Shown in pieces: positions 2,258 to 17,847 of a DNA stretch of 64,000 nucleotides. How positions within the stretch are numbered: position 1 is the first letter of the stretch; the number at the start of each line of letters is the position of its first letter. The stretch lies in assembly GCF_012769535.1 (NCBI RefSeq), contig NZ_CP046565.1, positions 620,001-684,000 on the forward strand. Reading direction: 5' to 3'. The stretch comes from Methylococcus geothermalis. GTDB taxonomy: Bacteria > Pseudomonadota > Gammaproteobacteria > Methylococcales > Methylococcaceae. A program made the translations under genes and the position numbers. The notes beneath the pieces are model-generated. The model was given only the letters and a program-made list of their open reading frames with translations. It ran no database searches and was not told the origin of the DNA.

Positions 2258-2325
2258 GCTTGCCCAATCGTTCAAGAAGCGCGGGAGTTTCCATGGATGC
2301 CGGGGGAAACGCAACCGACCTGGCT

Positions 2326-2784
2326 TCAACCCGCATCGCGCAGCATCTTCCGCAAGCCGACCAGCGCCGTCCGCTCCCAGCCCAGCCGGTCGTAGAAGGT
2401 CAGAGCCGGTTCATTGGTTCGGTCCGCCAGGAGCTGCAAGCGGGTGAGGCCGGCGTCGGCCGCCCAGCGCTCGATTTCGCCCAGCAGCCGCCGTCCGATG
2501 CCTTTCCCGCGGACTTCCGGCGCCACCACCATGTCCTCGACCAGCCCCACCCGGCCGCCTTCCGCCGTGGAAATCAGCGTCTGCACCGAACACATGCCGA
2601 CCACCCGGCCGTCGGATTCCGCCACCAGCACCCGGTCGGCGCCGCTCCCGATCAACAGCGCGAGCCCCTGGCGCTGGCGGTCCCGATCGAAGGCGAAATC
2701 CGCCTCGATCGAGAACAGGGCGCCGAGCAGTTCCGCCATCGCTTCAATGTCACGCGTCTCGGCGGGCCTGATCATAATGTCCAT
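2326..2784 (-). CDS. GNAT-family N-acetyltransferase
   Basis: A 152-residue single-domain GNAT protein. The acetyl-CoA-binding motif A is visible as VAPEVRGKGIGRRLL, followed by the motif B region with LTFYDRLGW. The acceptor substrate cannot be read from the sequence. I start at the ATG at 2784, with GAAGG upstream; earlier in-frame codons are low complexity. It sits immediately upstream of hpnB and probably shares its transcript. Confidence 0.8.
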   Translation of the reverse strand: MDIMIRPAETRDIEAMAELLGALFSIEADFAFDRDRQRQGLALLIGSGADRVLVAESDGRVVGMCSVQTLISTAEGGRVGLVEDMVVAPEVRGKGIGRRLLGEIERWAADAGLTRLQLLADRTNEPALTFYDRLGWERTALVGLRKMLRDAG

Positions 2785-2943
2785 GGTTTTACCTTCAGTG
2801 AACTTGAGAAAATGGGGCTCGAGCCGACCGGGGATGGGCCGCCCGCCCGTGGCCGGCGGGAGTTCCGGCCGCGTGGCCGAACCGCCAGGACGGGCGGCTG
2901 CAAAGACGCGGCCTCGAACCGAAACCTTAAAGGAGCCTCGCAA

Positions 2944-4035
2944 ATGAACACAGGTGAAACCGTAGCGTCCGACGGGATGCTGGAAAAGATGATCTCGCAC
3001 AAGCTGATAGATCTGTTCATCAGGGTTGGGCTGATAGGTTTTCTGGTCATTTATTGCTATCAGATATTCAAGCCATTTATCGGCTTGATGCTGTGGTCCG
3101 TCATACTGGCGGTGGCGTTTCATCCCATGCAGGTCTCGTTGGCCCGAAGAATGGGCAACAAGCAGGGCCGTGCCGCGACTGTCCTGGTACTAGTGATACT
3201 CCTGTGCGTGCTGATTCCCACTGCGCTTCTTGCCATATCCTTCGCGGATTCGGCGACCGACCTGGTACGGCAGGTCCGGGACGGCAGCCTCAAAGTGCCG
3301 GCTCCCCGCGCTTTTGTTGCGGAATGGCCTTTGCTGGGAGACAAGCTGTACGCGCTTTGGTCGGCCGCATACGATGATGTCGGCAGCGTGGCCGCGAAAT
3401 TCGAGCCCAAGATTCGCTCCGTCACCAAAGAGATATTGGGTTACGCGGCCAGCGCAGGCTCCGCGGTATTGAAGTTCCTGGTTTCCCTGGTGCTTGCGGG
3501 CGTCTGGATGGCCTATGCCTCGTCCGGCCACGCGGCGGCCAGAGCCATCGCCAACCGGATGGCGGGTCCCGAGCAAGGGGATGCCCTGGTCAGGCTTTCG
3601 ACGACGACCATTCGCGCCGTGGCGCAAGGCGTGATCGGCATCGCCTGCATTCAGGCGCTGTTGCTGGGTGCCGGCTTTATCCTGGTTGGCGTTCCAGCCG
3701 CGGGGATTCTGGCATTATTGGTTTTGCTGCTGGGTATCATGCAAGTTCCAGCCCTTTTGATATCGCTGCCGACGGTCATTTATGTCTTCATGACCAACGA
3801 CTCCACGATCGTGGCGATAATGTTCGCTATCTATACGATCGTTGCCGGTTCTGTCGATAACATACTCAAGCCCTTCATGCTGGGGCGGGGCGTGGACGCC
3901 CCGATGCCGGTGATTCTGCTGGGCGCCCTCGGCGGCATGGCGACCGGCGGCATCATCGGCCTGTTTCTGGGGTCCGTCATGCTGGCGTTGGGGTATCAGC
4001 TGTTCATGGCTTGGGTGTATAGCGACAACAATTGA
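2944..4035 (+). CDS. AI-2E family transporter (PerM-like permease)
   Basis: A 363-residue polytopic inner-membrane protein. It has paired N-terminal helices, a central soluble stretch (about residues 115-200) and a C-terminal bundle of helices, the layout of the AI-2E transporter/PerM family. Family members have been linked to autoinducer-2 export or to Na+/H+ antiport; the substrate here is unknown. The ATG at 2944 has GGAG at 2931-2934. It diverges from the GNAT gene across 159 bp. Confidence 0.85.
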   Translation: MNTGETVASDGMLEKMISHKLIDLFIRVGLIGFLVIYCYQIFKPFIGLMLWSVILAVAFHPMQVSLARRMGNKQGRAATVLVLVILLCVLIPTALLAISFADSATDLVRQVRDGSLKVPAPRAFVAEWPLLGDKLYALWSAAYDDVGSVAAKFEPKIRSVTKEILGYAASAGSAVLKFLVSLVLAGVWMAYASSGHAAARAIANRMAGPEQGDALVRLSTTTIRAVAQGVIGIACIQALLLGAGFILVGVPAAGILALLVLLLGIMQVPALLISLPTVIYVFMTNDSTIVAIMFAIYTIVAGSVDNILKPFMLGRGVDAPMPVILLGALGGMATGGIIGLFLGSVMLALGYQLFMAWVYSDNN

Positions 4036-4068
4036 GCGGGACATGCTAAACCGAAGCGAGGCAAGCAC

Positions 4069-4209
4069 TTGATCAGTGGGATGTTCGAGCCGGCAGCTTA
4101 CCGGCAGTTCGGGGTACTGGCGGCGGAACTCGGGATCGATAAGAGGGAGCTTTTACGGGAGGCGCTCAACGATCTGTTCGTGAAGCACGGCAAGCCGCCG
4201 ATTGCGTAA
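4069..4209 (+). CDS. Antitoxin-like ribbon-helix-helix protein (short, TTG start)
   Basis: About 46 residues. The helical part LAAELGIDKRELLREALNDL followed by HGKPPIA is the typical end of the antitoxin-like RHH family, and the ISGMF stretch just before it would be the beta strand. I start at the TTG at 4069, preceded by GAGG at 4058-4061. The frame stays open upstream to the permease stop at 4033-4035 (reading KPKRGK just before the TTG), so the 5' end may have been lost. It lies 21 bp upstream of a WGR-domain gene, which may be its partner. It is too short for most gene callers. Confidence 0.55.
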   Translation: MISGMFEPAAYRQFGVLAAELGIDKRELLREALNDLFVKHGKPPIA

Positions 4210-4230
4210 AAGCAAGCTCAGACCGCCAGC

Positions 4231-4512
4231 ATGACGACCTTCTACATCCAGCTCGAAGCGCGCGATCCCGCCAGGAACATTTCGCGTTCCTACCAGATCA
4301 TCGCCGGACAAGACCTGTTCGGGGATTGGGTGGTCGAGTTGACCTATGGCCGTATCGGAGCGAAGGGGCGCACGAAGGCCGTCCTGGTCGCTGACGAGAC
4401 CGCCGCGCGTCACTACGTGAGGCAATGTCTTAATAAGCGGAAAAGCGCACCCAAGCGGATCGGGGTGAGCTATGAAACGGTGAGTGTTGGGGGTGAGTGG
4501 ACAGATATCTAA
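4231..4512 (+). CDS. WGR-domain protein
   Basis: A 93-residue protein that is almost entirely one WGR domain: it contains the YGRIGAKGRT core after an N-terminal beta strand (FYIQLEA). WGR domains occur in PARPs and in many small bacterial proteins and are thought to bind nucleic acid. No catalytic domain is attached. It follows the RHH gene closely on the same strand, suggesting a two-gene unit. Confidence 0.8.
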   Translation: MTTFYIQLEARDPARNISRSYQIIAGQDLFGDWVVELTYGRIGAKGRTKAVLVADETAARHYVRQCLNKRKSAPKRIGVSYETVSVGGEWTDI

Positions 4513-4667
4513 GCGCCCTGTTCACTATGATTCAGTCAAGGAATACCTCGATCTCCACGCCGCCTTCATTTGGCGCGGGTTTCTAGCCGGTCGTATGAAT
4601 AGGATGTTGCCAGGGCAGAGTGGCGACCGAATAGATCGCGACGCCCTGGCAATCTCTTGTGCCTGGA

Positions 4668-6929
4668 TCAGGCCATGGCGGCTCCCATCTCTTGGCAAAC
4701 CCCTTCGACGATTGCAGCTACCTCGTGCAGAAACGAATTCCGATCTGGCGAGGGGGTTACGTCCGGGATCGGTGCGGCACGGTCATAGATTTCGCCAATA
4801 ATTGAAGCGCGTGTGTAACTCGATGCGCGTCCCGATTGGTTGAACGCCGATTGCCACTCCGGCATCCGTTCGGCCCGAACGCGGCGGGTGGCGAGGTCCA
4901 GTATCTTGGCGGACAGGGCGTTGGCCAGACCATCAAAAACCTGCTGCTTGTGTGCGTCGTCAGTCGGCTCTGCGGGGTCCCACCGGAGCGGGTTTTGCAG
5001 TAGTACATACAGTCGATCCTGAAGCTGCTTGCGAAGATCTGCGACCGGTTTGAGGTTGTCGTACTCGTCACCAAGACCCGGTGTACTGAGGCGCCGGCTC
5101 AATGCCCAGATGCGCTTCCAGTGTTCCTTGCCCACGCCGGGCTTGTAGGTGAGACCCAAACGCGGCCACCATGCATCGTGGAAACTCTCGGCCGCGTTCT
5201 TGACGGCCAGGACGAGATTCATGCGGTCATATACGGGCTTGGCCAATACAGGCTCGGGCTTCTCGACGATGGCGTCTATGGCGGCTAGCAGCGCTTGCAA
5301 TTGCTCGATAGTCCGCTTGTGAGCCTTCTTCGAGGCATCCAAGTCTTCGTCGATCCCGCCGACGAAGAAGCAGGCTTCCTTCAAGCGGCCGCGAAGCGCA
5401 CGTTCCGCGAACGGGCCAAGTTCTTCCCCAATCGAGGCAAGGACGTTCTCGGCGGACGCCAGAACGTGCTGCTCCCGATCCGCCGCGTTGCGCAGGTTAT
5501 CGCCCTTGACCTCGTCGAAGTGCGTGAACACGAGCAACAGCTTGCTCGAACTGCCCGAGGTGATCATCTCCTTCATGGCTGCAACCGGCGCGGCCTGCAT
5601 CGGCTGGACAGCGTTATCGACGAGCACGATGGCATCCGTTGATTCGATACGCCGTGTCAGCGAAGTCGAGATGGCGGCGACCGACTTGGGTGTGTGTCCA
5701 AGGCCTTCGCCATCGAGAAGCACGAGCTTGGGCTGCTGCCCACCGTTCCACGCTGGCAGGAACGCACCTGACACGCGGACTCCGTTCACCAGGGGCGTCA
5801 GCAGGCGTCCGAAGCGTGGGGAGTGGTTGCTGGAGAAACGCGTGACCGTCTTGATGAAGGTTGCGCGGTCGTCCGTCTCCCATGACCACGACTGCGGCCA
5901 ACCTTGCTTGTTGCGGCGTACCGTGCCATCGGTGAGCAGCGAGAAACGAAGCTCGATCTCGTCCATGAGATCGTCGCTGATGCGATGGAACTCATCGTCT
6001 TCACGGAGTCGGCGATCAAGCTCTTCCTCGAACAGCTCGTCGACGACCCGCTGATCTTTTTCGTCGATTGCGCCCAGTTCGCTTTTCAGTTGATCGCCGT
6101 GGCGGGACGCAATATCGCGCAACGCTTTCAACGTCTTCGTCAACAACTCATTGGTCTTGTCTAGATCGATCACGCCGTCGGCAGCAGTTTCCTCGATCGG
6201 TTCAGGTGCGTCGTTCTCGTCCTCGTCATCTTCATCATCGTTGGCTTGAGGCCCGTTGCCGAGTACGTAGTTGAAGCGGAATCGTTGGTTCACATGCATC
6301 AGCAGTTTCCGCAGCACGTCACCATCGCCATCGCCCCGGTACGCAGAGAGGACAGCTTCCGAGATGCATTCGTTCAGATGCTCGCGGACTTCGTCGATAG
6401 GGAAGAAGGTGACCACCGCCTTGTACGGGCCCGGTGCAAGCACGACCTCGGTCTCATGCACCGTGGTCTTCGCCGTCGATGTCGACGGAAAACGCTCGGT
6501 TTCCGGGTTCGTGCCGATCAACTGACGCAGCAACGTCGTCTTGCCGGCACCAGTCGTTCCGAGAAGCAGTGCCCGCCGATAGCCTGAGTCCTTGGACGTA
6601 GGTAGGGGAATGATCGACTCGCGGATCGCACCGAAGTCGTTCTGCTCCGGCTCCATGCCGTGATAGAAGATCTCTACGACTCGGCGGTGGAACCGCTTTT
6701 CGGCCTCAGCCTTGGCGGGCAGGCTCCAGAATGACTCGTCTGCAAGTAGTTGGTTGAGCTGATCCTTCAGATCGTTGGCTTCCGCTTCATCATGCGTTCC
6801 GAGCCCTTGGCGGACTCGCAATCCGGGCTGCCCGGTGTTCGGATCGACCCGAACTGGATGGCGGAAGATCACCGCCCAGGCACTCCTACCTTGCGACCGG
6901 CTAAGGGTTGCCGAGAATCGCTTTTTCAT
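4668..6929 (-). CDS. Large P-loop GTPase-like protein with GBP-type motifs
   Basis: A protein of about 753 residues, not assignable to a named family. The first ~65 residues (WAVIFRHPV, then a basic strand and EAEANDLKDQL) resemble the Arm-type DNA-binding domain at the start of tyrosine integrases. A Walker A (GTTGAGKTT) lies at about 124-132. A DGEGLGH motif near the middle looks like the G3 box of guanylate-binding proteins, and FTHFDE downstream could be a variant G4 box. Between them is an acidic, coiled-coil-like insert (DDEDDEDENDAPE and following). The C-terminal third is helical. The ATG at 6929 has GAGG just upstream. No partner gene is adjacent. A degraded copy of its first codons occurs at 9252-9298. 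Confidence 0.7.
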   Translation of the reverse strand: MKKRFSATLSRSQGRSAWAVIFRHPVRVDPNTGQPGLRVRQGLGTHDEAEANDLKDQLNQLLADESFWSLPAKAEAEKRFHRRVVEIFYHGMEPEQNDFGAIRESIIPLPTSKDSGYRRALLLGTTGAGKTTLLRQLIGTNPETERFPSTSTAKTTVHETEVVLAPGPYKAVVTFFPIDEVREHLNECISEAVLSAYRGDGDGDVLRKLLMHVNQRFRFNYVLGNGPQANDDEDDEDENDAPEPIEETAADGVIDLDKTNELLTKTLKALRDIASRHGDQLKSELGAIDEKDQRVVDELFEEELDRRLREDDEFHRISDDLMDEIELRFSLLTDGTVRRNKQGWPQSWSWETDDRATFIKTVTRFSSNHSPRFGRLLTPLVNGVRVSGAFLPAWNGGQQPKLVLLDGEGLGHTPKSVAAISTSLTRRIESTDAIVLVDNAVQPMQAAPVAAMKEMITSGSSSKLLLVFTHFDEVKGDNLRNAADREQHVLASAENVLASIGEELGPFAERALRGRLKEACFFVGGIDEDLDASKKAHKRTIEQLQALLAAIDAIVEKPEPVLAKPVYDRMNLVLAVKNAAESFHDAWWPRLGLTYKPGVGKEHWKRIWALSRRLSTPGLGDEYDNLKPVADLRKQLQDRLYVLLQNPLRWDPAEPTDDAHKQQVFDGLANALSAKILDLATRRVRAERMPEWQSAFNQSGRASSYTRASIIGEIYDRAAPIPDVTPSPDRNSFLHEVAAIVEGVCQEMGAAMA

Positions 6930-6948
6930 GATCACCTCAGTTGTTCAG
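6901..6948. repeat. Direct repeat, copy 1 (start of the GTPase gene)
   Basis: This stretch covers the ribosome-binding site and first codons of the large GTPase gene. It recurs at 9252-9298 in the same orientation with about 41 of 47 positions matching. The two copies bracket the AT-rich insert at 6949-9251. Confidence 0.75.
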
Positions 6949-7019
6949 CTATGAAGGAGCACAAGGAAGTCGAGCGAAGCGAGCGAGTGCGACGCCCCCC
7001 CGCGAAGCCGTAGGCCCGG

Positions 7020-7066
7020 ATGTTTTGTCGGAATCCGCGGCTTCATCGCGGGTGGAGACAAAACAT
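7020..7066. repeat. Inverted repeat (10-bp perfect arms)
   Basis: ATGTTTTGTC (7020-7029) is matched by GACAAAACAT (7057-7066) around a GC-rich 27-bp centre. It lies in the 289-bp space between the GTPase gene and the next minus-strand gene. No T-run follows it, so it does not look like an ordinary terminator. Confidence 0.6.
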
Positions 7067-7131
7067 AAGGGACCCGACACGGCGTCGAGTCATTGTGGAA
7101 GCCTTGGCGGAGTGCGTCGCGGAGAGAAAGA

Positions 7132-7198
7132 CGTCGCCAATTTTTTGCTCCCGAGGGTGACTGGGATGTCCCGTCGGGTTTCGCAAAAAATGGCGACG
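7132..7198. repeat. Long imperfect hairpin
   Basis: CGTCGCCAATTTTTTGC (7132-7148) pairs with GCAAAAAATGGCGACG (7183-7198) with one unpaired base. Inside, CCCGA and TCGGG can extend the stem. It sits 21 bp beyond the stop of the 7219-7920 gene. It could be a bidirectional terminator, a MITE end or a folded RNA; the sequence does not decide. Confidence 0.6.
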
Positions 7199-7218
7199 CT
7201 CCCGTGTTCCGTTGGGCT

Positions 7219-7920
7219 TTATTTTTTACAATGCTTGTACCAATCATCAATATATTTATAAGTTTCCGAGTTTTTGTCGGTAGAAATCTTCAATGTCTTC
7301 GTTCTACTTGGAAATTCATCGAGATTAGCAATATAGTTATCGTCAATACAGAGTATTTTTACCGCCCTTCTTAAACAAAACCAAATAATCGATCCTGGGT
7401 CATCAAATTCGTACCAATCACCAATGACTTCTACTAACGCAATCGGCTTTTTTCCATTTACAACAGCAACTATGTCTCCAATTTGCACCCGGTTTTTAAA
7501 ATCGGTGATTTGAGGGTCTATAACACCGTTTCGTTCCCAAATACCCATTCCAATCGTTCCGCTTGAAACGATTTTTTTTATATCATTATCAGTTAAAAGA
7601 TCATTGGTTGGGTGAAGATTCATGTGCCAATAATGACCTTGTATCTCTCTACCTTGTATCTCTATTTTGATACCCAGCGACTTGCACGTTGTTTTGAACC
7701 AATCCGGAAGTACATATGGCCCGTCCTGGCCCCCATTGAACATGAGCCGAGGGCTCGGGACGAGCCTTGAGATCAATTTCAACAAGTCCTTCAGGTCACG
7801 TTCGAAGTCATTCTGGGAATAGGCCGGCGGCTCGCCCATGATGCTAACTGACAGGGGAAACTCTGCCCCCTCTGCGCAGTACTCACCCGTGATGTCCAAG
7901 TTACCAATCTGAATCAACAT
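7219..7920 (-). CDS. Unknown protein, possible PUA/EVE-like C-terminal domain
   Basis: A 233-residue protein with no family I can name. The C-terminal half has the pattern of a PUA/EVE-like fold: IGDIVAVVNGKKPIALVEVIG, then an aromatic-rich strand and WFCLRRAVKI. Such domains read modified bases in some restriction proteins, but that is only an analogy here. The gene is clearly AT-richer than its surroundings. It lies just beyond an attC-like site (8058-8117) on the side where a gene cassette would begin, suggesting horizontal acquisition. Confidence 0.5.
   Translation of the reverse strand: MLIQIGNLDITGEYCAEGAEFPLSVSIMGEPPAYSQNDFERDLKDLLKLISRLVPSPRLMFNGGQDGPYVLPDWFKTTCKSLGIKIEIQGREIQGHYWHMNLHPTNDLLTDNDIKKIVSSGTIGMGIWERNGVIDPQITDFKNRVQIGDIVAVVNGKKPIALVEVIGDWYEFDDPGSIIWFCLRRAVKILCIDDNYIANLDEFPSRTKTLKISTDKNSETYKYIDDWYKHCKK
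7604..7634. repeat. 31-bp direct repeat, copy 1 (inside the 7219-7920 gene)
   Basis: This stretch encodes the MNLHPT region of the unknown protein. It recurs at 7992-8022 with one mismatch in 31, just upstream of the gene. Confidence 0.8.
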
Positions 7921-7991
7921 TTTCTGTTACCTGCGTTGTTGGGTTAAGGAATTAACATTTGTAATCAGCCATTAGAGTTGCTTCCAACAAT

Positions 7992-8022
7992 TTGGTTGGG
8001 TGAAGATTCATGTGTCAATAAT
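7992..8022. repeat. 31-bp direct repeat, copy 2 (upstream of the 7219-7920 gene)
   Basis: A near-exact copy of 7604-7634 lying between the attC-like site and the gene start. On the minus strand it opens a 19-codon frame beginning MNLHPTKLLEA and ending in TAA, so it may be a leftover of a related gene's 5' end or a leader peptide. Confidence 0.75.
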
Positions 8023-8057
8023 TCATAAATACTCCTTAGGTTTATACAGTTAAACGC

Positions 8058-8117
8058 GCCTAACGATAAAGCTCACCGGCTGAGCGCGGCGGAGTCCGGT
8101 GCAGCGAAAAGTTATTA
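8058..8117 (-). repeat. Integron attC-like recombination site
   Basis: Read on the minus strand, the site ends in GTTAGGC (8064-8058), a perfect GTTRRRY core. The opposite core is degenerate (TAATAAC). Inside, GCTGCACCGG and CCGGTGAGC form imperfect L boxes with one extrahelical base, around a short GC-rich centre. This order (core, spacer, L box with a bulge, loop, L box, spacer, core) is the attC layout. No integrase gene is present in the window. Confidence 0.6.
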
Positions 8118-8211
8118 ACCAGGCAATCAAATATCTTGAAATTCTGCATATTGGACAGCCGAATGATTGAAGTAAGCCATCACCCGTTATGGTGTTTTTC
8201 TTAGGAATTCA

Positions 8212-8412
8212 ATGAATCGGTTCGCTTTTTGGAGCAACACCTTTCGTCTTGGGCTTTGCGTGGTAATTTTAGGGTATCAACTTTTTCCATGCCAATTGAT
8301 TGCCAGGTTAATCGGCAATGGTATCCAAGCGGCAAACCTCATGCTGCGCAAAGCGTGTACGGCTAATGCATGCACTACGCAGTGCTGTCAAGTAAACCAT
8401 GTTTGCTGGTGA
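8212..8412 (+). CDS. Small cassette-like ORF, unknown
   Basis: A 66-residue ORF with an AGGAAT ribosome-binding site six bases before the ATG. It has a hydrophobic N-terminal half (LGLCVVILGYQLF) and a Cys-rich end. Short hydrophobic proteins of this kind are common in integron gene cassettes, but I cannot name the family. The last 25 bp overlap the convergent zincin gene, and its strand is opposite to the one the attC orientation suggests, so it may be non-functional. Confidence 0.35.
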   Translation: MNRFAFWSNTFRLGLCVVILGYQLFPCQLIARLIGNGIQAANLMLRKACTANACTTQCCQVNHVCW

Positions 8413-9158
8413 TGCGGTGCACAAACCGAACACGCCGGTATCGACCAATCACTCCTCAGCCAAGTATCCCAACGCGCAACCTCCTCGGTTGCAATCCTGA
8501 TCTTGCAGAACTCGCAAAGTTTATTCTCCATGCCTTCTATGATCTTGTGTCGCTCTACTAATAGACGCGAATTAGTTGTCTCTAAGTCCACGCGAATGTC
8601 TTGATGATACGTGCTGTATATTTTCGGTTGAACATCGACCAGTTTAAGCATCAAGTCTTCGTGAGATTGGAAACCTAGTATAGACCAGAACCTGTGGGAG
8701 TACCATTGAGCAAAGTATTCTTTCGCATCTATTCGAGCTGTTTCGAATTTAACCCATATTTTTCCATCCCCATCAATCCCAAGATGTGTTGCCGCGTGAG
8801 CCAATTCGTGAGCCATCACTACATCGCCAAGTGTCTGGCTATCCACTTGCAGTCTATGAGCGCACATCTCGACGACTTTGGGATATACAGTTACCATTTT
8901 TTTCTCTGAGCTGTAAGTTCCCAAAATATCTAGCAACCCAACCTGGACAGTTTTTTTCTCTGAGCTGTAAGTTCCCAAAATATCTAGCAACCCAACCTGG
9001 ACAGTTTTGTCAAACCTGTAATCAAACAAATCTCTGACAAAGTTAATGATCCATTCTGGGATGTTATCGCGCTTGTCCTCAATGTGAATTGATGGTACTT
9101 CGTCCACATTGAGACCCATCATGTCCACCAAGTTTTCGAACATCTCTATTTGTTCCAT
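8388..9158 (-). CDS. HELAH-motif zinc metallopeptidase-like protein
   Basis: A 256-residue protein with a zincin motif, HELAHAATH, at about residue 117, followed about 30 residues later by an Ala/Glu-rich segment (DAKEYFAQWY) that could supply the third ligand. The C-terminal part has two Cys pairs (CEFC and CSVC) that may bind zinc. The substrate is unknown. Residues 51-86 hold two exact copies of an 18-residue block, from a perfect 54-bp duplication just before the metal-binding domain. The gene is AT-rich. It lies upstream of the attC-like site in the cassette orientation. Confidence 0.55.
   Translation of the reverse strand: MEQIEMFENLVDMMGLNVDEVPSIHIEDKRDNIPEWIINFVRDLFDYRFDKTVQVGLLDILGTYSSEKKTVQVGLLDILGTYSSEKKMVTVYPKVVEMCAHRLQVDSQTLGDVVMAHELAHAATHLGIDGDGKIWVKFETARIDAKEYFAQWYSHRFWSILGFQSHEDLMLKLVDVQPKIYSTYHQDIRVDLETTNSRLLVERHKIIEGMENKLCEFCKIRIATEEVARWDTWLRSDWSIPACSVCAPHHQQTWFT
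8897..9004. repeat. Perfect 54-bp tandem duplication inside the zincin gene
   Basis: 8897-8950 and 8951-9004 are identical. The unit is 18 codons, so the reading frame survives. Perfect identity points to a very recent event or to an unstable repeat. Confidence 0.95.
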
Positions 9159-9251
9159 TCATTGCTCCCCGAATCCGTGTTCGTGATACTGAAGTCATGT
9201 TCCGGCCTCACCCAAACGACCATGGCGCAATTTACGCTGGACTGGCGCTGA

Positions 9252-9298
9252 CTAAGGATGCCGAGAATCGCTTTTCCATGATCGCCACAGTTGTTCAG
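9252..9298 (-). pseudogene. Truncated copy of the 5' end of the GTPase gene
   Basis: On the minus strand this reads an ATG (9279) and MEKRFSASL, matching MKKRFSATL at the start of the large GTPase, then runs into unrelated sequence and a stop. The upstream 20 bases also match. The ribosome-binding site is weakened (GAGG becomes GTGG). It marks one edge of the AT-rich insert or the leftover of a duplicated gene. Confidence 0.6.
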
Positions 9299-9845
9299 TT
9301 GTTGTTCCGTACGGAATCTTAGGCGCGACGAATCTAGCTGTCAAGCATTTTTGAACAACGGCGGAACAACATATCCCGGTTCCGTGCAGGCGGAAGGCAG
9401 GGGCTCGTCCTGGCGCATGAAAATGACGTAACGCCGCCCCGCCAGCGCCGACTTTCAGCGCCAAAAGGCACTGCACCGCCCCAAGCAAGGCCATCGGCAG
9501 ACCGAATATCCGGGCTGTCAGGCTGATATTTCACGCCAGAGAGCTCACAGAAGGGGCTTCAACTTTGATGACCACGGATTCAGGTTATCGTTAAACGCGG
9601 GCGGAAGGCATCCGTCGTCAGCCAACGAATCGGTAGCGCCCGCCCACATCCAGAGCTTTGGATATCCTTGCCATCTGCCGTCAATGCTGTGGATTTGTTT
9701 GTTTTCAGATCATTGTGCCAATCCTTTCAAGGTGCCTGCCGCTGGCGGGAGTTTTCCGGCCACGGCTGCGGATTCACTTTCCACCGACGGAGTTCCATTT
9801 CGGCGCGGGCGGAACAGATATCACGCAACGCGGAATCGGAAGGTA
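9299..9845. other. Region without a convincing gene
   Basis: GC-rich sequence with only short open frames lacking family motifs or ribosome-binding sites. A spaced inverted pair TTGTTCCG/CGGAACAA lies near 9302-9370. I read it as chromosomal debris at the junction between the AT-rich insert and the McrBC-like locus. Confidence 0.5.
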
Positions 9846-11486
9846 TCAAGCCAGCGCTCCTGCGGTCAGGAAGTCGCCGATGAGCCTGTCTATCGCATCC
9901 CTGCCGTCAGCCTTGCCCGGCACCAACACCAGTGCGCCGACACCTTCATAGGGGCTGTCGCTGCGGGCCGTGAAGGCCCGATGGACCTCCTGCTTTTCGC
10001 CGGGATACAGCACGAACGCGCCCCAGACGTTACGGATGGCCTCGCGGTAGGCGTGCATCTTGTCGATGTCGTCCGGGTTCGGTGACTCGATGCCGGTATC
10101 GCCGCTCCGGAAGCCGCGGTATTTGGCGTCGAGGATCAACAGGCGGTCCCCGTCGCTCAAGATGATGTCCGGGCGCAGGTCATGGGAATAACTGCTCAAT
10201 CTGCCGGGGGAGCGGGCGGCGCAGGTGACGTTGTAATACAGAGCGATGCCTTGGCCGTAATCCAGCCGCAGCCCTTCCCGCAGGGCGTCTTCCTCCGCCT
10301 CGGCCTTGGCGATGATCGAGACTTGCCGGGGTGGGCCGAATCGCGCATCGAGCCGTTGTTTCACCTGGAAAAAGCACCAGTACTCGTACAGCAATGGTGC
10401 GTCCTTGATTTCGACCAGGGCGGTGAAGTCCAGCAGATTCGGGTCATAACGGCTGGCTTGCTGAAGCAGGGCGAACAGCCGGAACAGCTCGCGGTAACCG
10501 GCGCGGCGTTGGAGCACGGTGGACTGGGTGGGAATGTGGCGCAGTTCCCCCACTTCCCGCCAGCGAGGCTCGTCCAGAAAGCGGTCAAGGCCGCGCTCCA
10601 GCCGGCCGATCTCGTCGCCCATTTCGGGATGCAGAAACGTGCCGCCGCCCTCGCCCAGCATGGCTTTGATTTGCGCCAGCCGCTGTTCGAGCTGGGTCAG
10701 GAAAAACTTCACGAACCGGTTTTCCGGCGTATCCACCGTGGCATGGCGCCGCCGGCTTCGAACCCGTTCGGAAAACAGCCGCCGGCCGGTGCGTTGGAAC
10801 ACGCTGCGGGCCAGTGCGGTGTCGTTGAGCGGATGGCTCGGCTCCAGCCGCCCCCATGCGGCGGGTCGGCTGAAAAGGGCCATGGCCGCGGCACCGTCCA
10901 GTTCGCGCACCCGGTCGATGGGCGTCTCCTCGACCGTGGAAACGATGCGCTCATGCATGGCGCGGTGCACCAGCGCGGCGATGCCATCGAGATCGGGGCG
11001 CGTATGAAGCAGATGGTGGCGGATGAGCAGGTATTGCAGATACAGGGTATCCCGGCCGGGACGATCCTTGCGCCAGTTTACCCCGGCGATCTGGCGGAAG
11101 CTGAAAATCAGTGCTGCGTATTGATCGCACAGGAAATCCAGCATGGCGTTGAAGTGCTCTTCCGTGATTTTCCGGTGGACGACCTTGACCCGGAACCCTG
11201 CCAGGTTGGATTGGCCGACATGGTTTTGGAAGTTGATGCGATACGTCGGCAGGGCATGGTGCGGGAGTCGTTCGAAGCGGTTGCCGCCCACGGAGTTCAG
11301 GCATCGTGAAAACTGGGCGGGTACTTCACCGTAAAAGCGCAGATAGGCGGTTTGCCACTCATCGATTTCGATGACGCCGGCCCTGTCTTCCACAGCCTCC
11401 CAGCCATTTTCATCGGGTCCGGGAAAGTTTCCCTCGCCGGTAATCAGCACCGCGCGGGTCCCCCGGCAAAAAAACATCTCACTCAT
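9846..11486 (-). CDS. DUF2357 / PD-(D/E)XK nuclease protein (McrC-like)
   Basis: About 546 residues. The N-terminal two thirds match the DUF2357 layout. The C-terminal third holds a PD-(D/E)XK core: RPDIILSDGD, then LLILDAKYRG, the D...DAK pattern of the PDDEXK_7 family. Proteins of this type act as the nuclease partner of McrB-like AAA motors; such a motor is encoded at 13028-14185. I start at the ATG at 11486, whose codons overlap the WYL gene's stop at 11479-11481, so the two are coupled. The target is unknown; restriction of modified or foreign DNA is an inference. Confidence 0.75.
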   Translation of the reverse strand: MSEMFFCRGTRAVLITGEGNFPGPDENGWEAVEDRAGVIEIDEWQTAYLRFYGEVPAQFSRCLNSVGGNRFERLPHHALPTYRINFQNHVGQSNLAGFRVKVVHRKITEEHFNAMLDFLCDQYAALIFSFRQIAGVNWRKDRPGRDTLYLQYLLIRHHLLHTRPDLDGIAALVHRAMHERIVSTVEETPIDRVRELDGAAAMALFSRPAAWGRLEPSHPLNDTALARSVFQRTGRRLFSERVRSRRRHATVDTPENRFVKFFLTQLEQRLAQIKAMLGEGGGTFLHPEMGDEIGRLERGLDRFLDEPRWREVGELRHIPTQSTVLQRRAGYRELFRLFALLQQASRYDPNLLDFTALVEIKDAPLLYEYWCFFQVKQRLDARFGPPRQVSIIAKAEAEEDALREGLRLDYGQGIALYYNVTCAARSPGRLSSYSHDLRPDIILSDGDRLLILDAKYRGFRSGDTGIESPNPDDIDKMHAYREAIRNVWGAFVLYPGEKQEVHRAFTARSDSPYEGVGALVLVPGKADGRDAIDRLIGDFLTAGALA

Positions 11487-12459
11487 CGGTAGGTGCCCGA
11501 TGGTTCTGCCAGAGAGCCCAGGCTTCGTCCCGCACACATTGGCGCAGAGATTCGGGCGCTTCGACGATCACGTCGGCGCCGTGGCGCAGGACGTCCATCG
11601 CCAGTTCGGCTTCCTCGGCATAGGGGATGCGCAGGCGGTAACTGCCATCCGGCAGGAGTTCACCCTGCTGATCGCGGTGCCAGCACTCGTGCCGCACCCA
11701 GCGGGCGCGTTCCGGCACGAAGCGCAGTACCGCCCAGTGCCGGGTTTCGCCGGAGAAAATGCCGTAGCTCGACGTGTACTGCCGCGCCAGCGCTTCGTCC
11801 GGGATCTCATGCGCAGAGGTTGACAGGGTGCGCACCTGCCGCAGCGTGTCGAGTGAAAAACTGCGCAGGCCTTCGCGCCAGTGGCACCAGGCATCGAGAT
11901 ACCAATTGTCCCGGTAATGAATCAGCCGCTGGGGGGAAACGATCCGAACGTTCAACTCGTCCCGGCGGCGGTTCCAGGCGGAGATTTCGATTTGGCGCCG
12001 TTGCAGGAGCGCTTGCGTTACCTCGTTGAAGAATCGGGGTTCGACCGGACGCCGCGCCAGCGAGACCAGTTTCACGCGCCGGGCAACCTCCGCCGCCGGA
12101 TGCCCGCCGCTTTCCAGCAGGGCCGCCAGGCGCGACTTGAGGGGGGCCACATGGGCCGCCAGAACCCCGGGCTCGATGTCCTCCAGCAGGTTTTGCGCCG
12201 CCAGCAAGGCGTAAAGTTCGGCCGAGGAAAACCACAGGCCGGGCAGTTCATAGGGCGGGCCATCCACAGCGTCGAACCGGTAGCCGCGCGCCTCGCGGTC
12301 CCAGACGATGGGCGCATGCAGACGGTCGCGCATGTATTCGATGTCGCGCTTGAAGGTCGCGAGGGAAACGCCCAGCGCTTCCAGAAAAGCGCCGATGGGA
12401 ACCACTTTCCGCTCATGCAGCATCTGGTCGATCTTGTAGAAGCGTTCGGTGCGGTTCAT
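11479..12459 (-). CDS. WYL-domain transcriptional regulator
   Basis: A 326-residue protein with an N-terminal helix-turn-helix (about residues 8-60, with SLATFKRDIEYMRDRL as recognition region) and a C-terminal WYL-type ligand-binding module. WYL regulators are frequent in phage-defence loci, where they sense nucleic-acid-derived ligands. It overlaps the DUF2357 nuclease gene downstream, which suggests it controls that operon. The ATG at 12459 is supported by the HTH beginning immediately after. Confidence 0.8.
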   Translation of the reverse strand: MNRTERFYKIDQMLHERKVVPIGAFLEALGVSLATFKRDIEYMRDRLHAPIVWDREARGYRFDAVDGPPYELPGLWFSSAELYALLAAQNLLEDIEPGVLAAHVAPLKSRLAALLESGGHPAAEVARRVKLVSLARRPVEPRFFNEVTQALLQRRQIEISAWNRRRDELNVRIVSPQRLIHYRDNWYLDAWCHWREGLRSFSLDTLRQVRTLSTSAHEIPDEALARQYTSSYGIFSGETRHWAVLRFVPERARWVRHECWHRDQQGELLPDGSYRLRIPYAEEAELAMDVLRHGADVIVEAPESLRQCVRDEAWALWQNHRAPTDE

Positions 12460-12591
12460 CTCACTGATGAATTGGATTTCAACGGGTGAGCGTATTCTTG
12501 GTATAGACGTGAGGCGCGCTGTTTTGTCTCGGACTCGGGCATGTTTTGGTCGTCGCGGCTTTCCGCATTCTCCCGGCCATCCAAGCGTGCC

Positions 12592-12879
12592 TCACTTGTG
12601 GAACTGATAGGTGCGCGTCCCACTATAGTAGCGTCCGTTGATAAAGCCCTGAGAATTGCAGATCAATCGCCCCCCGCTGTTCCAGCAGCTCGTATTTATC
12701 GGGCCGCTGGCCTTGGTGTAGGCGGCTAGAACGAATGGAACGACGATGGGGGCCCATACGGCCATTCCAAGATATTCCATGCTCTTTTCAAATGAACCCT
12801 TGTAGTCTATTTCCCCATTGGGCAGGTGGGCACACCCTCCCAAAAGGGAGAAGCACAGAATCCAGCAAGTCTTGTTCAT
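12592..12879 (-). CDS. Small lipoprotein, unknown
   Basis: About 95 residues. The N-terminal signal ends in the lipobox LLGGC, so it is probably lipidated and anchored in the membrane. The rest has one hydrophobic stretch (WAPIVVPFVLAAY) and two further Cys residues. The ATG at 12879 follows GGAG at a good distance. It lies between the WYL gene and a repeat that flanks the McrB-like part of the locus; it may be unrelated to restriction. Confidence 0.6.
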   Translation of the reverse strand: MNKTCWILCFSLLGGCAHLPNGEIDYKGSFEKSMEYLGMAVWAPIVVPFVLAAYTKASGPINTSCWNSGGRLICNSQGFINGRYYSGTRTYQFHK

Positions 12880-12950
12880 ATGTGTCTCCAATCAGCGGAT
12901 AGACAAATGGCGCCATGTGCTTAAAGGTATGCTCTAAGCCGCGATCAGGT

Positions 12951-12983
12951 TACGGGCTGTGAAGGCTCATAGAGTGAGCCACT
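12951..12983. repeat. 33-bp imperfect direct repeat with GGCTCA/TGAGCC palindrome, copy 1
   Basis: Begins TACGGGCTGT and contains GGCTCA...TGAGCC. It matches 15613-15645 at 27 of 33 positions in the same orientation. The pair brackets the AAA ATPase gene and its two upstream partners. Confidence 0.65.
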
Positions 12984-13027
12984 CTAATGGGTTCCCAACA
13001 TTTTCTCGGTGGCCGGCAAGCGCGCCG

Positions 13028-14185
13028 TCAGGCGATGAAGCTGCAATATCCCTGGTCGCTCAGGTCCTTCAGCATCCGCTGCAGCTTTTTCGCACTGCGG
13101 GCAAAGTCACTGGTCTCGCAGAACGCGTTCAGTGTCTTCAGTGGCTCCTCCAGTTTTCCCTGGGTGCCGTGGAATTTCGGCAACACTTTCTGGAGGATCT
13201 GGATGTCGATGGCGTCGTTCAAATGCTCCGCACCGACGTGTTTTACCGCAAGCAGGATAAACCGGGCCATTTCGTTGGCGACACGGTAGCCGAAATGGAG
13301 ATGAAACGGTTCGAGCAAGTTTTTGAGGGCATTGACCGTTTCGCTGAATCGCGGATGTTCTTTCGCGGCTTTTCTGAAATCGTCCAGCGAACAAAACGTC
13401 GTCTCGGCCTCATGGAACCAGTTCAGCACTTCCTGCTGGTCCGATTTCAACCTGAAATTTCCCAGGATCGGATCGCTGGGTGAAAAGCTCACCTCGTTGA
13501 ATTCGATAACGTTGGCCCGGTCCAGCACCTTGGGGCTGAACATGTAGGTGGTTTCGTCGACGTTGACCGTGCCGGTGAAATACACGTTGTTGGGGATGTG
13601 TATTTCAGCCGGAATGGGAATCGGATCGGTTTCCGTCGACTCGATGGCGAGAACCTTGTGGTTCCGGATGCCATGCAGCTCGATACGTTCTCCCTTGGGG
13701 TTGCCTGCGGTACGGCTTTCCATCACGCTGAGGAAGTCGGAGAAATAGTGCTCGACCTTGGCCAAATTCATCTCGTCGAGGATGATGAAATACGGTTTAT
13801 CAGGATGCTTCTCGGCCTCGATCAGCAGCCGCAATACCTTGGTGGTGTAATAGCGCTGATCGAGCAGGTTGTAATAACCCAGCAAGCCCCGGTTGTCCGT
13901 CCAGTCCGGCCGCACGGACACGAAGGCCAGCCGCTTCTCCTTCTCCTCCTCGGTTTCGTTCTGCAGCATGTACTCGGCGAATAACTGGGCAATCTTGGTT
14001 TTGCCGGTGCCGGAGATGCCGGAAAGGATGACGAGGGGCTTGGACTTGAGGGAGAGAACGTAACGACTAATGATCGAGGTCGATAGACGCAATTTTGTCT
14101 CGTCATAATAATCGTAAATATCAATCATGCTCTTTGACAAGACAAAATACCCTGTATGCGGATCGTAGCTAGTTAGGTTCGGCAT
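13028..14185 (-). CDS. McrB-like AAA+ ATPase
   Basis: A 385-residue single AAA+ domain. Walker A is GISGTGKT (about residues 56-63). Walker B is FIILDEMNLA, the McrB-type variant, and FTGTVNVDE with a downstream DRAN carries the sensor region. There is no N-terminal DNA-binding domain as in E. coli McrB, so target recognition may come from the overlapping upstream gene. It would power the DUF2357 nuclease encoded 1.5 kb downstream. An internal ATG at 14128 with AAAGAG upstream is an alternative start that loses 19 residues. Confidence 0.8.
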   Translation of the reverse strand: MPNLTSYDPHTGYFVLSKSMIDIYDYYDETKLRLSTSIISRYVLSLKSKPLVILSGISGTGKTKIAQLFAEYMLQNETEEEKEKRLAFVSVRPDWTDNRGLLGYYNLLDQRYYTTKVLRLLIEAEKHPDKPYFIILDEMNLAKVEHYFSDFLSVMESRTAGNPKGERIELHGIRNHKVLAIESTETDPIPIPAEIHIPNNVYFTGTVNVDETTYMFSPKVLDRANVIEFNEVSFSPSDPILGNFRLKSDQQEVLNWFHEAETTFCSLDDFRKAAKEHPRFSETVNALKNLLEPFHLHFGYRVANEMARFILLAVKHVGAEHLNDAIDIQILQKVLPKFHGTQGKLEEPLKTLNAFCETSDFARSAKKLQRMLKDLSDQGYCSFIA

Positions 14186-15035
14186 CCAATTTTTTGACCA
14201 ATGATGGCATAATTTTTTCCCGGACTATTCGCTGCCACCCTTCATCCCAATCAGTGGAAGGGTAAAGCTTCTCCAGGGTTTCACAAACGGAAACGACATT
14301 ATGTTCTGGCGCATGTTCGATCGCCATTCTAACTTGCTCGGTTGTTGGAAGACGAAATGATGGAGGCGGTTCCGATGTTTCTAACTCCTTGGCTCTGCTC
14401 ACTATCTCAGATAGCCGATCTTGGTTTTTGCGATACCAGTCGTGCACCTTTCTTAGGGTGGAGGCAACAATTTCCAATTGTTCCTTCTGTTTGTCTAATT
14501 CTGTATCGGCGTCTAGTGCGGGAGTCTCAACCCAAAACATAAGGGTTGCTTCCGTTGATGGTGTTTTTGATTTTGGGGTCTTAAAGTGTATTTGTGTATT
14601 GGGTATGTTGATGCCTTTCAATAGCTCTTTGATCTCATTCTCGGTTTTTTTATGAAGATCAATGCTCAGCTTCTTAATTGAGAAGACAACGCGTCCGTGA
14701 CGGTATTCTGGTCCTTCCCCGTTATCTGAATTGTCCGTTTTTGCGTATGGCCTGAACTCTAGCTGAAGCATAGGGTTGTTGAGGCAATTGAAATAAAACC
14801 ATTGTTCTTTTATTTTGGCTTTATCATGGGCTAGCGGGGGCTCCTTCATGTCTAATATCTTGTTTTCTTCTTTCTCCGTCATGTGGCTGTAAAAGTCGCG
14901 GCGAAACTTAATATTTTTTGCGGTGTTTGTGTTGCTGTTTGTGTTCATTCTGCTATAAGCTCGACTTAAACTGTTAAAATTTATATAAAAAGAAATTTGT
15001 TCCTCTGGTATCAATGTTATTGCCGTTAGTGCCAT
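14169..15035 (-). CDS. Unknown protein of the McrBC-like locus
   Basis: A 288-residue protein with no family I recognise. The first ~60 residues are Asn/Thr-rich, the middle is beta-rich (QWFYFNCL to RHGRVVFSI), and a helical, charged stretch (about 170-220) looks coiled-coil. It overlaps the AAA ATPase gene by 17 bp and the secreted-protein gene by 10 bp, so all three should be co-translated. It is AT-richer than the neighbouring chromosome. Its position suggests the specificity subunit of the motor, but this is inference. An internal ATG at 14948 is another possible start. Confidence 0.55.
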   Translation of the reverse strand: MALTAITLIPEEQISFYINFNSLSRAYSRMNTNSNTNTAKNIKFRRDFYSHMTEKEENKILDMKEPPLAHDKAKIKEQWFYFNCLNNPMLQLEFRPYAKTDNSDNGEGPEYRHGRVVFSIKKLSIDLHKKTENEIKELLKGINIPNTQIHFKTPKSKTPSTEATLMFWVETPALDADTELDKQKEQLEIVASTLRKVHDWYRKNQDRLSEIVSRAKELETSEPPPSFRLPTTEQVRMAIEHAPEHNVVSVCETLEKLYPSTDWDEGWQRIVREKIMPSLVKKLDAEPN

Positions 15036-15523
15036 GGATTTCCATTTTTAAGTAGCTTATCCTTTAACTCCAAAACTTTCTGCTGCTCTTCGCTCTCGAC
15101 CTCCTCCTCCCTCAGCGCTTGCGCGGCGCTGATGGCGTTCTTGCTCCGGGTGACAGAAGCGGTCACAGGAATGCCGGTGCAATAATCCAGAATAACGCCA
15201 GCATCGCAAATCGTGTGGATCACGAAAGCCTTGGCGGAAAACTTCTTGTCGTAAGGGAAGCAGTAGCTCACCCCGTATATCGGCTTGTTGATGACCGATG
15301 CGCACAGCATCGGTCCGTTCTTGACCGCCCAGACCTGTCTTCCCGATTTGGCATCATAGCCGCTGTATTCCCCGTCGCCATCGTTCTGGTTGATGACGAC
15401 CACGTCCGTGTAGGTCGAGGTGTTCAGGCGGAAGGTCAGGGCGAAGGTGGCGATGGCCTTGTCGGCGCCCGAAGCGCCGAAGCTGGCCAGGGCGGCGGTC
15501 AGGAAGAGGGTAGTTCGTTTCAT
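15026..15523 (-). CDS. Exported protein of unknown function
   Basis: A 165-residue protein with a clear N-terminal signal sequence (hydrophobic core LFLTAALASFGASG). Five Cys lie in the mature part and could form disulfides. The C-terminal 40 residues are Glu/Lys-rich and helical. No known family. It opens the minus-strand unit whose next gene overlaps it by 10 bp, although a periplasmic protein is an odd partner for a restriction motor. Confidence 0.55.
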   Translation of the reverse strand: MKRTTLFLTAALASFGASGADKAIATFALTFRLNTSTYTDVVVINQNDGDGEYSGYDAKSGRQVWAVKNGPMLCASVINKPIYGVSYCFPYDKKFSAKAFVIHTICDAGVILDYCTGIPVTASVTRSKNAISAAQALREEEVESEEQQKVLELKDKLLKNGNPWH

Positions 15524-15612
15524 GGTCGTAGGGTTCCCGTGTGTCCGAAGAAAGTGAAAGCGCAGTTGCCAGCCGGACTCATCTCCGGACTGGGTTGCGC
15601 CGGGTCACACGA

Positions 15613-15645
15613 TACGGGCCGTAATGGCTCAAATAGTGAGCCACC
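15613..15645. repeat. 33-bp imperfect direct repeat, copy 2
   Basis: Matches 12951-12983 at 27 of 33 positions, with the same GGCTCA...TGAGCC palindrome. It lies in the 282-bp space between the exported-protein gene and the ABC-F gene, where I see no other feature. Confidence 0.65.
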
Positions 15646-15805
15646 CATCCCGGAAGTACGAACTTGAGATATCCTTGTTTGCTTGAAAAGGGCACAAGCC
15701 GCCTCGAAATCCCGTTCCTGGCTTCCACGTGAAGCAACCCGCAAGCCAAGGGCCGGCACCGGTCGGGACGATCCATTCATCACTCCTTACCTCTCGGTAA
15801 CCATT

Positions 15806-17398
15806 TTGATCTCTACAGCCAATGTCACCATGCAGTTCGGCGTCAAGCCGCTGTTCGAAAACGTCTCCGTCAAGTTCGGCGAGGGCAACCGCTATGGCCT
15901 GATCGGGGCCAACGGCTGCGGCAAGTCGACCTTCATGAAAATCCTCGGCGGCGATCTGGAGCCGACCGCCGGTAATGTGTCGCTCGACCTCAACGAGCGC
16001 CTGGGCAAGCTGCGCCAGGATCAGTTCGCGTTCGAGGACCAGCGGGTGCTGGATGTGGTGATGATGGGGCATACCGAGATGTGGGCGGCGATGTCCGAGC
16101 GCGACGCCATCTACGCCAATCCCGAGGCGACCGAGGACGATTACATGCGGGCGGCGGAGCTGGAGGCCACGTTCGCCGAGTACGACGGCTATACCGCCGA
16201 GTCGCGCGCCGGCGAGCTGTTGCTGGGCGTGGGTATTCCGGTGGAGCAGCACCATGGCCCGATGAGCGCGGTGGCGCCGGGTTGGAAGCTGCGCGTGCTA
16301 TTGGCCCAGGCGCTGTTCTCCAACCCGGACATCCTGCTGCTGGACGAGCCCACCAACAACCTGGACATCAACACCATCCGCTGGTTGGAAAACGTGCTGA
16401 ACGAACGCAACAGCACGATGATCATCATTTCGCATGACCGCCATTTCCTGAACAGCGTCTGCACCCACGTGGCGGACATGGATTACGGCGAGCTACGCAT
16501 CTATCCGGGCAATTACGACGATTACATGATCGCTTCCACCCAGGCGCGGGAACGCCTGCTCGCCGACAACGCCAAGAAGAAAGCCCAGATCGCCGAGCTG
16601 CAAACCTTCGTCAGCCGCTTCTCGGCCAATGCCTCCAAGGCCAAGCAGGCCACGTCGCGCGCCAAGCAGATCGAGAAGATCAAGCTGGAAGACATCAAGC
16701 CGTCGAGCCGGGTCAATCCCTTCATCCGCTTCAACCAGGACAAGAAGCTGTACCGCCTGGCGCTGGAGGTGAAGGAGCTGAGCCAGGGTCACGGTGGAAA
16801 AGCGCTGTTCAGCGGGCTGGGCATGATGGTCGAGGCCGGCGAGCGGGTGGCGGTGATCGGCCCCAACGGCATCGGCAAGAGCACCCTGTTGCGCACCCTG
16901 GTGGGCGAACTGGCGCCGCTGGAGGGGACGGTGAAATGGTCGGAGAACGTCAATCTGGGCTATTTCGCCCAGGACCATGCCGCCGATTTCGCCGAGGACA
17001 TGACGTTGTTCGAATGGATGGCGCAATGGAAGCGCGAAGGCGACGACGAGCAAACGGTGCGCGGCACCCTCGGCCGGCTGTTGTTCTCGGCGGACGAAAT
17101 CAAGAAATCGGTCAAGGTGCTGTCGGGGGGCGAGCAGGGACGCATGCTGTTCGGCAAGCTGATATTGCAGCAGCCCAACGTCATGGTGCTGGATGAACCC
17201 ACCAACCATCTGGACATGGAGTCGATCGAGTCGCTCAACACCGCGCTGGAAAACTACCCCGGCACCCTGATCTTCGTCAGCCACGACCGCGAGTTCGTGT
17301 CCTCCCTGGCGACCCGCATCATCGAGCTGACGCCGCGGGGCGTGGTCAACTATAGCGGGACCTACGAGGAATACCTGCGGTCACAGGGCGTGGAATAG
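15806..17398 (+). CDS. ybiT: ABC-F ATPase, YbiT type
   Basis: Cytosolic ABC-F protein with two ABC domains and no membrane segments. Walker A motifs GANGCGKST and GPNGIGKST, a degenerate first and a full second LSGGE signature, and two Walker B motifs followed by EPTNNLD and EPTNHLD are visible. The domains are joined by the charged Arm/linker typical of the family. The sequence follows E. coli YbiT closely and, from the TTG at 15806, has exactly its 530 residues. ABC-F proteins of this branch act on the ribosome; the exact role of YbiT is little known. Confidence 0.85.
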
Positions 17399-17412
17399 GC
17401 GGACAGGGGGCG

Positions 17413-17832
17413 GTGGAAAGGCTGAGAGTCAATGCCCAGGTTTCGATCCCGCTGGACGAGATCGAAATCAGCTTCGTCCGTGCCCAAGGAGCCGGCGGGC
17501 AGAACGTCAACAAGCTGGCCACCGCGGCGCATCTGCGCTTCGACATCGCCGCATCGTCCCTGCCGGAAACCTGCAAGACGCGGCTGCTGGCGTTCCGAGA
17601 CCAGCGGATTTCTTCCGAAGGGGTCATCGTCATCAAGGCCCAGCGCTTCCGCACTCAGGAAAAGAACCGCGAAGACGCGCTGGCCCGGCTGCGCGAACTG
17701 ATCCTGGCGGCGACGGCGCAGAACAAGCCGCGCAAGGCGACCCGGCCGACTTTGGGGTCGCAGCAAAAACGCCTAGAGCACAAATCCAGGCACGGGCAGC
17801 TCAAGAAACTGCGGGGCGGGATCGGCGATTAG
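17413..17832 (+). CDS. arfB: ArfB, peptidyl-tRNA hydrolase / ribosome rescue factor
   Basis: A 139-residue class I release-factor-like protein with the catalytic GGQ (AQGAGGQNVNK, about residues 26-28) and a Lys/Arg-rich tail (SRHGQLKKLRGG) that in ArfB enters the empty mRNA channel. It frees peptides from stalled ribosomes that lack a stop codon. Start is the GTG at 17413, 15 bp after the ABC-F stop, with a G-rich stretch upstream; both genes act on ribosomes and may share a transcript. Confidence 0.88.
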   Translation: MERLRVNAQVSIPLDEIEISFVRAQGAGGQNVNKLATAAHLRFDIAASSLPETCKTRLLAFRDQRISSEGVIVIKAQRFRTQEKNREDALARLRELILAATAQNKPRKATRPTLGSQQKRLEHKSRHGQLKKLRGGIGD

Positions 17833-17847
17833 CGCCGCCGGTTCCGC

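Follow-up and report, generated by a model that had tools for sequence, protein, structure and literature searches.

A McrBC-type locus of Methylococcus geothermalis with a putative separate, exchangeable recognition subunit

The 64,000-nucleotide stretch of Methylococcus geothermalis DNA analysed here (the window) contains a locus that probably encodes an NTP-driven restriction complex of the McrBC type that leaves target recognition to a separate, exchangeable subunit: a 288-residue protein, X288, docked by its C-terminal tail. The broader proposal, that one motor-nuclease pair serves several interchangeable readers with differing recognition domains and the same docking tail, such that gaining a small gene changes or widens the range of targets, appears to us evenly poised. 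Both draw on features read from the sequences, namely gene content, intact catalytic motifs, a common tail joined to N-termini that vary, the occurrence of that tail only where the motor is present, and a repeated element. From these features we infer docking, DNA as the target, a role in restriction or defence, and binding by the WYL protein.

In the established model for E. coli McrBC, the reader picks the target, and McrC both activates the motor ring and, once translocation has taken place, makes the cut (PMC11090510; PMC12707154). By the mechanism proposed here, the N-terminal domain of X288 would bind a nucleic-acid target and its three-helix tail would dock on the reader-less motor or on the motor-McrC assembly. 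McrC would bind the motor ring, its DUF2357 domain stimulating hydrolysis as in E. coli McrBC; the motor would then translocate and the PD-(D/E)XK domain of McrC would cut. The two half-operons would be tied to each other by an operator common to both, to which the WYL regulator probably binds. If this is true, separate readers accepted through a tail would explain target diversification of one restriction engine, as HsdS does in type I systems. Such readers would also supply new domains for nucleic-acid recognition and would offer a route to retargeting via domain swaps.

Results

Organization of the locus

The content, order, single strand and overlaps of the genes given in the initial annotation were borne out by the open reading frames (Table 1), and Pfam matches together with the map of reading frames place the DUF2357/PD-(D/E)XK nuclease apart from the motor, beyond a lipoprotein and a WYL regulator. 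Here motor and McrC lie in separate transcription units, and two further genes stand between them, an arrangement seen in none of the 12 closest relatives. X288 overlaps the motor gene by 17 bp and the exported-protein gene by 10 bp. The McrC reading frame runs from 11537 to 9846, with the ATG at 11486 as the better start, and the overlap of the WYL gene with McrC, counted from that ATG, is 8 bp. GC content is 42% in X288, 65% in the WYL gene and 63% in McrC; GC3 is 45% in X288 versus 77% in McrC.

Table 1. Features of the locus and of the surrounding island, in window coordinates
Feature	Position	Strand	Basis
Putative exported protein, 165 aa	15026..15523	-	ORF; opens upstream half-operon; signal-peptide-like N-terminus by eye
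X288, proposed separate reader subunit, 288 aa	14169..15035	-	ORF; tailed reader genes of relatives sit at this position
C-terminal tail of X288 (aa 228-288), proposed docking module	14172..14354	-	hhalign, shuffles, AF2
McrB-type AAA+ motor, 385 aa	13028..14185	-	Pfam, PADLOC, alignment, phmmer
37-nt operator-like element, copy 1	15608..15644	-	85 nt upstream of exported-protein gene
37-nt operator-like element, copy 2	12946..12982	-	55 nt upstream of lipoprotein-WYL-McrC unit
Putative lipoprotein, 99 aa	12592..12891	-	lipobox LGGC; signal-peptide-like N-terminus by eye
HTH-WYL-WCX transcriptional regulator, proposed to control both half-operons	11479..12459	-	Pfam, PADLOC
McrC, DUF2357 + PD-(D/E)XK nuclease	9846..11486	-	Pfam, motif alignment
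Variable island with the locus	4030..15795		flanks syntenic with same-genus genome G136

The island around the locus is variable: G136 matches the window at positions 2323-4029 (94%) and 15796-17837 (90%), with other content in between. Elsewhere in the island, positions 7219-7920 (minus strand) encode a 233-aa low-GC protein whose second half resembles, by eye, an EVE/PUA-like reader of modified bases, without a Pfam match; it is possibly the reader of another system. A 256-aa gene (8388-9158), whose product has CxxC pairs at its C-terminus, contains an exact 54-bp tandem duplication at 8897-9004. Positions 4668-6935 (minus strand) encode a 755-aa P-loop GTPase-like protein with a weak match to LeoA (2.6e-4) and an N-terminus that looks by eye like the arm-binding domain of phage integrases. 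A 43-nt repeat, 91% identical, occurs at 6906-6948 and 9256-9298 and brackets a low-GC segment of 7.2-9.2 kb; these repeats are perhaps traces of insertion.

The signal-peptide proteins that had been pointed out as unusual for a restriction locus appear by eye to be real, but they are not conserved in relatives and are probably not core parts. Neither the lipoprotein nor the exported protein has relatives at other loci of the family, and we rejected both as core parts on that ground. Related 154-aa lipoproteins of a family unlike that in the window lie between the WYL gene and the readers at two other loci (L045, 5816-6280; L049, 4147-4611), and exported proteins recur beside the motor family, yet are not conserved.

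The motor and the nuclease

The motor matches Pfam AAA_5 (3.7e-5), the core of PADLOC PDC-M26A (1e-58) and PDB structures of E. coli McrB (5e-5, phmmer). Its Walker A motif, GISGTGKT, occupies residues 56-63, Walker B residues 134-138, and the NxD signature reads N208-V-D210-E211. In an alignment of 10 motors, GISGTGKT, IILDE and the N-x-D-E signature are invariant, and N-[VI]-D-E is the NxD form. The AAA core starts near residue 40, with the P-loop at about residue 56, and so close to the N-terminus it leaves no room for a fused reader, in keeping with the earlier description of a motor that lacks a DNA-binding domain. A reader domain fused to the motor is absent in the window and is found in locus L042 and in outgroups only.

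McrC matches DUF2357 (1.6e-67) and PDDEXK_7 (6e-18) in Pfam and, weakly, the RE_LlaJI profile (0.0045). Its catalytic residues P439-D440 ... D453-A-K455 are intact and are invariant in an alignment of 10 sequences. The regulator matches the Pfam families WYL (9e-18) and WCX (1e-15).

A repeated element before both half-operons

One copy of the 37-nt element, an inverted repeat GGCTCA-N5-TGAGCC, precedes each half-operon. The two copies are 81% identical, and no third copy was found in 464 kb of the genome with up to 9/30 mismatches. The element probably places both half-operons in a single regulon, and the WYL protein is its candidate and probable binder. In several relatives the WYL gene is divergent from the operon and inverted repeats lie in the shared intergenic stretch, none of them as clear as those in the window. 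In the two Methylobacter loci the operon begins with a gene for an HNH-like protein, 88% identical between them (L040, 3025-3897; L048, 8480-9313), that is divergent from the WYL gene; they share an inverted repeat, ACCCTTAC-N7-GTAAGGGT in L048.

Relatives of the motor

Relatives were sought by a scan of 84,980 genomes (contigs) and by further whole-genome searches with the motor alignment. The contig scan returned 20 loci, ten of which have motors 51-58% identical to that of the window (L040-L049), and the whole-genome searches added two close loci (L085 in G461 and L086 in G744), neither of which is in the tail profile described below. Most of the close relatives are MAG contigs. In all 12 the motor gene stands immediately before McrC, the two adjoining or overlapping, and in all save L042 the motor is reader-less. 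A WYL regulator lies nearby in nine (eight by scan, and L043 by a near-identical WYL sequence), and a protein of about 1130 aa in six (L041, at 12831-16208, L043, L044, L047, L085 and L086). In L041 this protein carries domains of the RNase_H_2 and SF1-helicase kinds, and the five others look alike by their N-termini; it is possibly a further component of the system.

In the maximum-likelihood tree the 12 relatives and the window form one clade (support 95/88), within which the window motor groups with the two Methylobacter motors, L040 and L048 (97/93). The motor family is sporadic: strong matches occur in one of 369 sampled genomes of the class (the window genome itself), 4/141 genomes of the Geobacter order, 4/155 of the class of G370 and 2/151 of the Methylobacter family, and in none of five sampled genomes of the same genus. 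One motor was found among viral contigs (L063), with an insert after Walker A inside the AAA domain and without a separate reader; on that contig (1-3229) the McrB-type motor and a McrC gene stand beside phage tail and lysis-like genes.

A common tail on the genes upstream of the motor

Upstream of the relatives' motors lie one to three small genes of 180-290 aa, whose N-terminal domains are mostly unrelated. Outside Methylococcales, every such gene ends in a common three-helix tail of about 60 aa, for example LPTKADIEFAESQLRQSPDEVIGIKAVLDQVELNYMEAEERLKENWRYITERNIELWF. Sixteen upstream genes at 8 of the first 10 loci carry it (one to three per locus), as do four at the later-found loci (three at L085, one at L086); the Methylobacter locus L040 has no recognisable tail gene. 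A profile of the 16 tails, run on the entire genome of each of ten motor carriers, returned exactly those 16 places, all at the motor locus. Across the Geobacter order, the tail occurs in 4 of 141 genomes, the same four that have a close motor, and always at the motor locus. One of these, G461, is not in the profile, and its tails again stand in tandem upstream of the motor.

Tails are 46% identical within a locus versus 28% between loci, a difference reached in 0/10000 label permutations, and no two N-terminal parts within one locus are similar. Counted with X288 and the fusion in L042, the reader N-termini of the 13 loci sort into 16 families, nearly all of them lacking a Pfam match; one N-terminus is a DUF4268 domain (7e-8), which also matches the PADLOC candidate-defence domain PDC-S11 (1e-9). 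In L042, the domain carried by the tailed proteins L044d and L045a is fused to the motor and the tail is absent, and this motor is nested inside the split (unfused) clade of the maximum-likelihood tree. A reader domain fused to the motor without its tail is the pattern expected if the tail attaches reader to motor. The AF2 model of the L045 reader has a confident three-helix tail (pLDDT 86-97); a PDB fold search with this reader and its tail gave no match. The upstream genes of L043 and L044 combine two tail subtypes, an NWR type and a WW type, the latter adjoining the motor; the two subtypes may mark two docking places.

These observations bear on a different role for the tail, as a nucleic-acid-binding or regulatory helical domain on small proteins that would control or block the motor rather than direct it to a target. 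This appears unlikely to us. In its favour are a three-helix fold without a PDB match and the presence of several tailed genes at one locus, as might be expected of sensors or inhibitors acting as a set; however, L042 places the variable domain where the reader of McrB sits and drops the tail, and it is the tails, not the variable domains, that co-vary with the locus.

X288 as a putative member of the tailed family

X288 occupies the reader position, directly upstream of the motor, like the tailed genes of relatives. It had no match in Pfam, NCBIfam or PDB, and its sole PADLOC match is marginal (HTH_IX, 0.0037). Its N-terminal portion of about 225 aa is an orphan domain that resembles no other reader of the family and had no relative in a protein search of 369 genomes of the class, plasmids, phages and viral contigs. 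Co-occurrence of the 288-residue gene itself with the motor, to which the initial annotation had looked, is therefore not found; it is the tail that co-occurs with the motor instead. An orphan N-terminus fits a fast-exchanging reader, and it fits a passenger gene equally well.

The C-terminal 61 residues, RLPTTEQVRMAIEHAPEHNVVSVCETLEKLYPSTDWDEGWQRIVREKIMPSLVKKLDAEPN, give a colinear alignment with the tail. With a profile that includes the Methylobacter intermediate L048a (t21), the X288 tail beats 422/422 decoy C-termini in hhalign; without L048a (t20), 5/422 unrelated C-termini score as high, and the corresponding HMMER score is reached by 70/5000 shuffles. L048a itself, set against a profile lacking it, is exceeded by 1/422 decoys. 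Compared directly, the tails of X288 and L048a match without gaps over 29 residues, with a score of 55 that was reached by 0/20000 tail shuffles and 10/3000 whole-protein shuffles. A profile with both tails found full-length matches only in the window genome and the Methylobacter genome among 181 genomes of the order, a result that is partly circular as both are in the profile. We take it as statistically supported, though not certain, that X288 bears the family tail; the likeness is significant but weak.

The AF2 model of X288 places helices at residues 232-241, 247-257 and 265-285, with a tail pLDDT of about 53-72, and is poor at residues 1-130 (pLDDT 22-48). Because the N-terminal model is poor and the domain is an orphan, the fold lends no support to DNA binding by X288. 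A PDB fold search with this low-confidence model found nothing with an E-value of 0.001 or lower; the match with the best probability, 3cxj, was set aside as evidence. We also considered X288 and the motor as a split PDC-M26A, since their lengths add up, and rejected this, X288 having no match to the N-terminal part of that profile.

The X288 gene could instead be a recently inserted passenger with a chance likeness to the tail, at a locus that has lost its true reader. The orphan status of X288, a GC content unlike that of its neighbours, a tail score that is marginal without the L048a intermediate, and the placement of motor and McrC apart from each other, as rearrangement might leave them, would all be consistent with such a history. 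It seems improbable nonetheless, given the 17-bp overlap with the motor gene, the exact reader position of the relatives, and a colinear tail match that is full-length, reaches the C-terminus and was equalled in none of the 20000 shuffles against the nearest relative's reader; low GC content fits an exchangeable reader too. The suggestion that X288 is a separate recognition subunit thus gains from its position, from the tailed readers found across the family and from its tail match, but not from its own N-terminal domain, of which the genomes, plasmids, phages and viral contigs searched contain no relative.

Other McrBC-like arrangements

The locus might also be a plain three-gene McrBC-like type II cassette of the BsuMI or LlaI kind, with methyltransferases elsewhere. 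LlaI and BsuMI do have short, reader-less motors (337 and 343 aa) in three-ORF cassettes (PMC1459862). However, no methyltransferase was found among the nine island proteins scanned, and the motor here is of the NxD type, which makes this reading distinctly unlikely. To our knowledge, systems of the BsuMI/LlaI kind with several tailed readers are not known. A CoCoNuT-type, RNA-directed suicidal relative of McrBC is very improbable: the motor does have the NxD motif followed by E, as in the CoCoNuT branch (PMC11090510), but it starts at the AAA core with no long fused coiled-coil, no HEPN, cold-shock, Hsp70 or TerY-P genes occur among the nine island proteins scanned, and the McrC nuclease motifs are intact.

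Comparison with known systems

A complex with a separate, tail-docked reader, which remains our preferred reading, would share parts with several described systems. A split cassette alone is not new, because BsuMI and LlaI have separate third genes beside short motors (PMC1459862). A common tail on exchangeable readers, or several readers per motor, was not found described in the McrBC census paper (PMC11090510) or in the open-licence literature.

As with the BrxR-type WYL regulators of defence islands, a WYL regulator stands beside the restriction locus and an inverted-repeat element lies upstream of the operons, although binding of the element by the regulator in the window is a prediction only. 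CoCoNuTs and the NxD branch (PMC11090510) share the NxD GTPase motif followed by E, whereas no coiled-coils and no HEPN, cold-shock or TerY-P parts occur among the proteins scanned at this locus, and separate tailed readers were not found in that paper. The window motor matches the PDC-M26A core of PADLOC (1e-58) from profile position 309 on only; PDC-M26A, in contrast, spans 724 positions and includes a long fused region at its N-terminus, and the window McrC matches PDC-M26B at only 0.03 over 24 residues.

The R1/R2 pair of LlaJI (PMC1459862) likewise joins a McrB-like motor to a McrC-like nuclease, but its reader is fused to R1 and it has two methyltransferases. The BsuMI/LlaI cassettes (PMC1459862) share a short reader-less McrB-like motor, a McrC-like nuclease and a third gene; unlike the window, they are type II systems with methyltransferases and one third gene, and have no known common tail on exchangeable readers.

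E. coli McrBC has the same AAA+ motor and a McrC of DUF2357 and PD-(D/E)XK domains, encoded by adjacent genes as in the relatives of the window. It differs in that McrB has a fused reader (ADAM/DUF3578) and NxxD where the window has NxD, and in that its operon has no separate reader, tail or WYL partner. Known McrBC specificity sits within the motor protein. The locus is best read as a variant of McrBC-type restriction that is neither a CoCoNuT nor PDC-M26.
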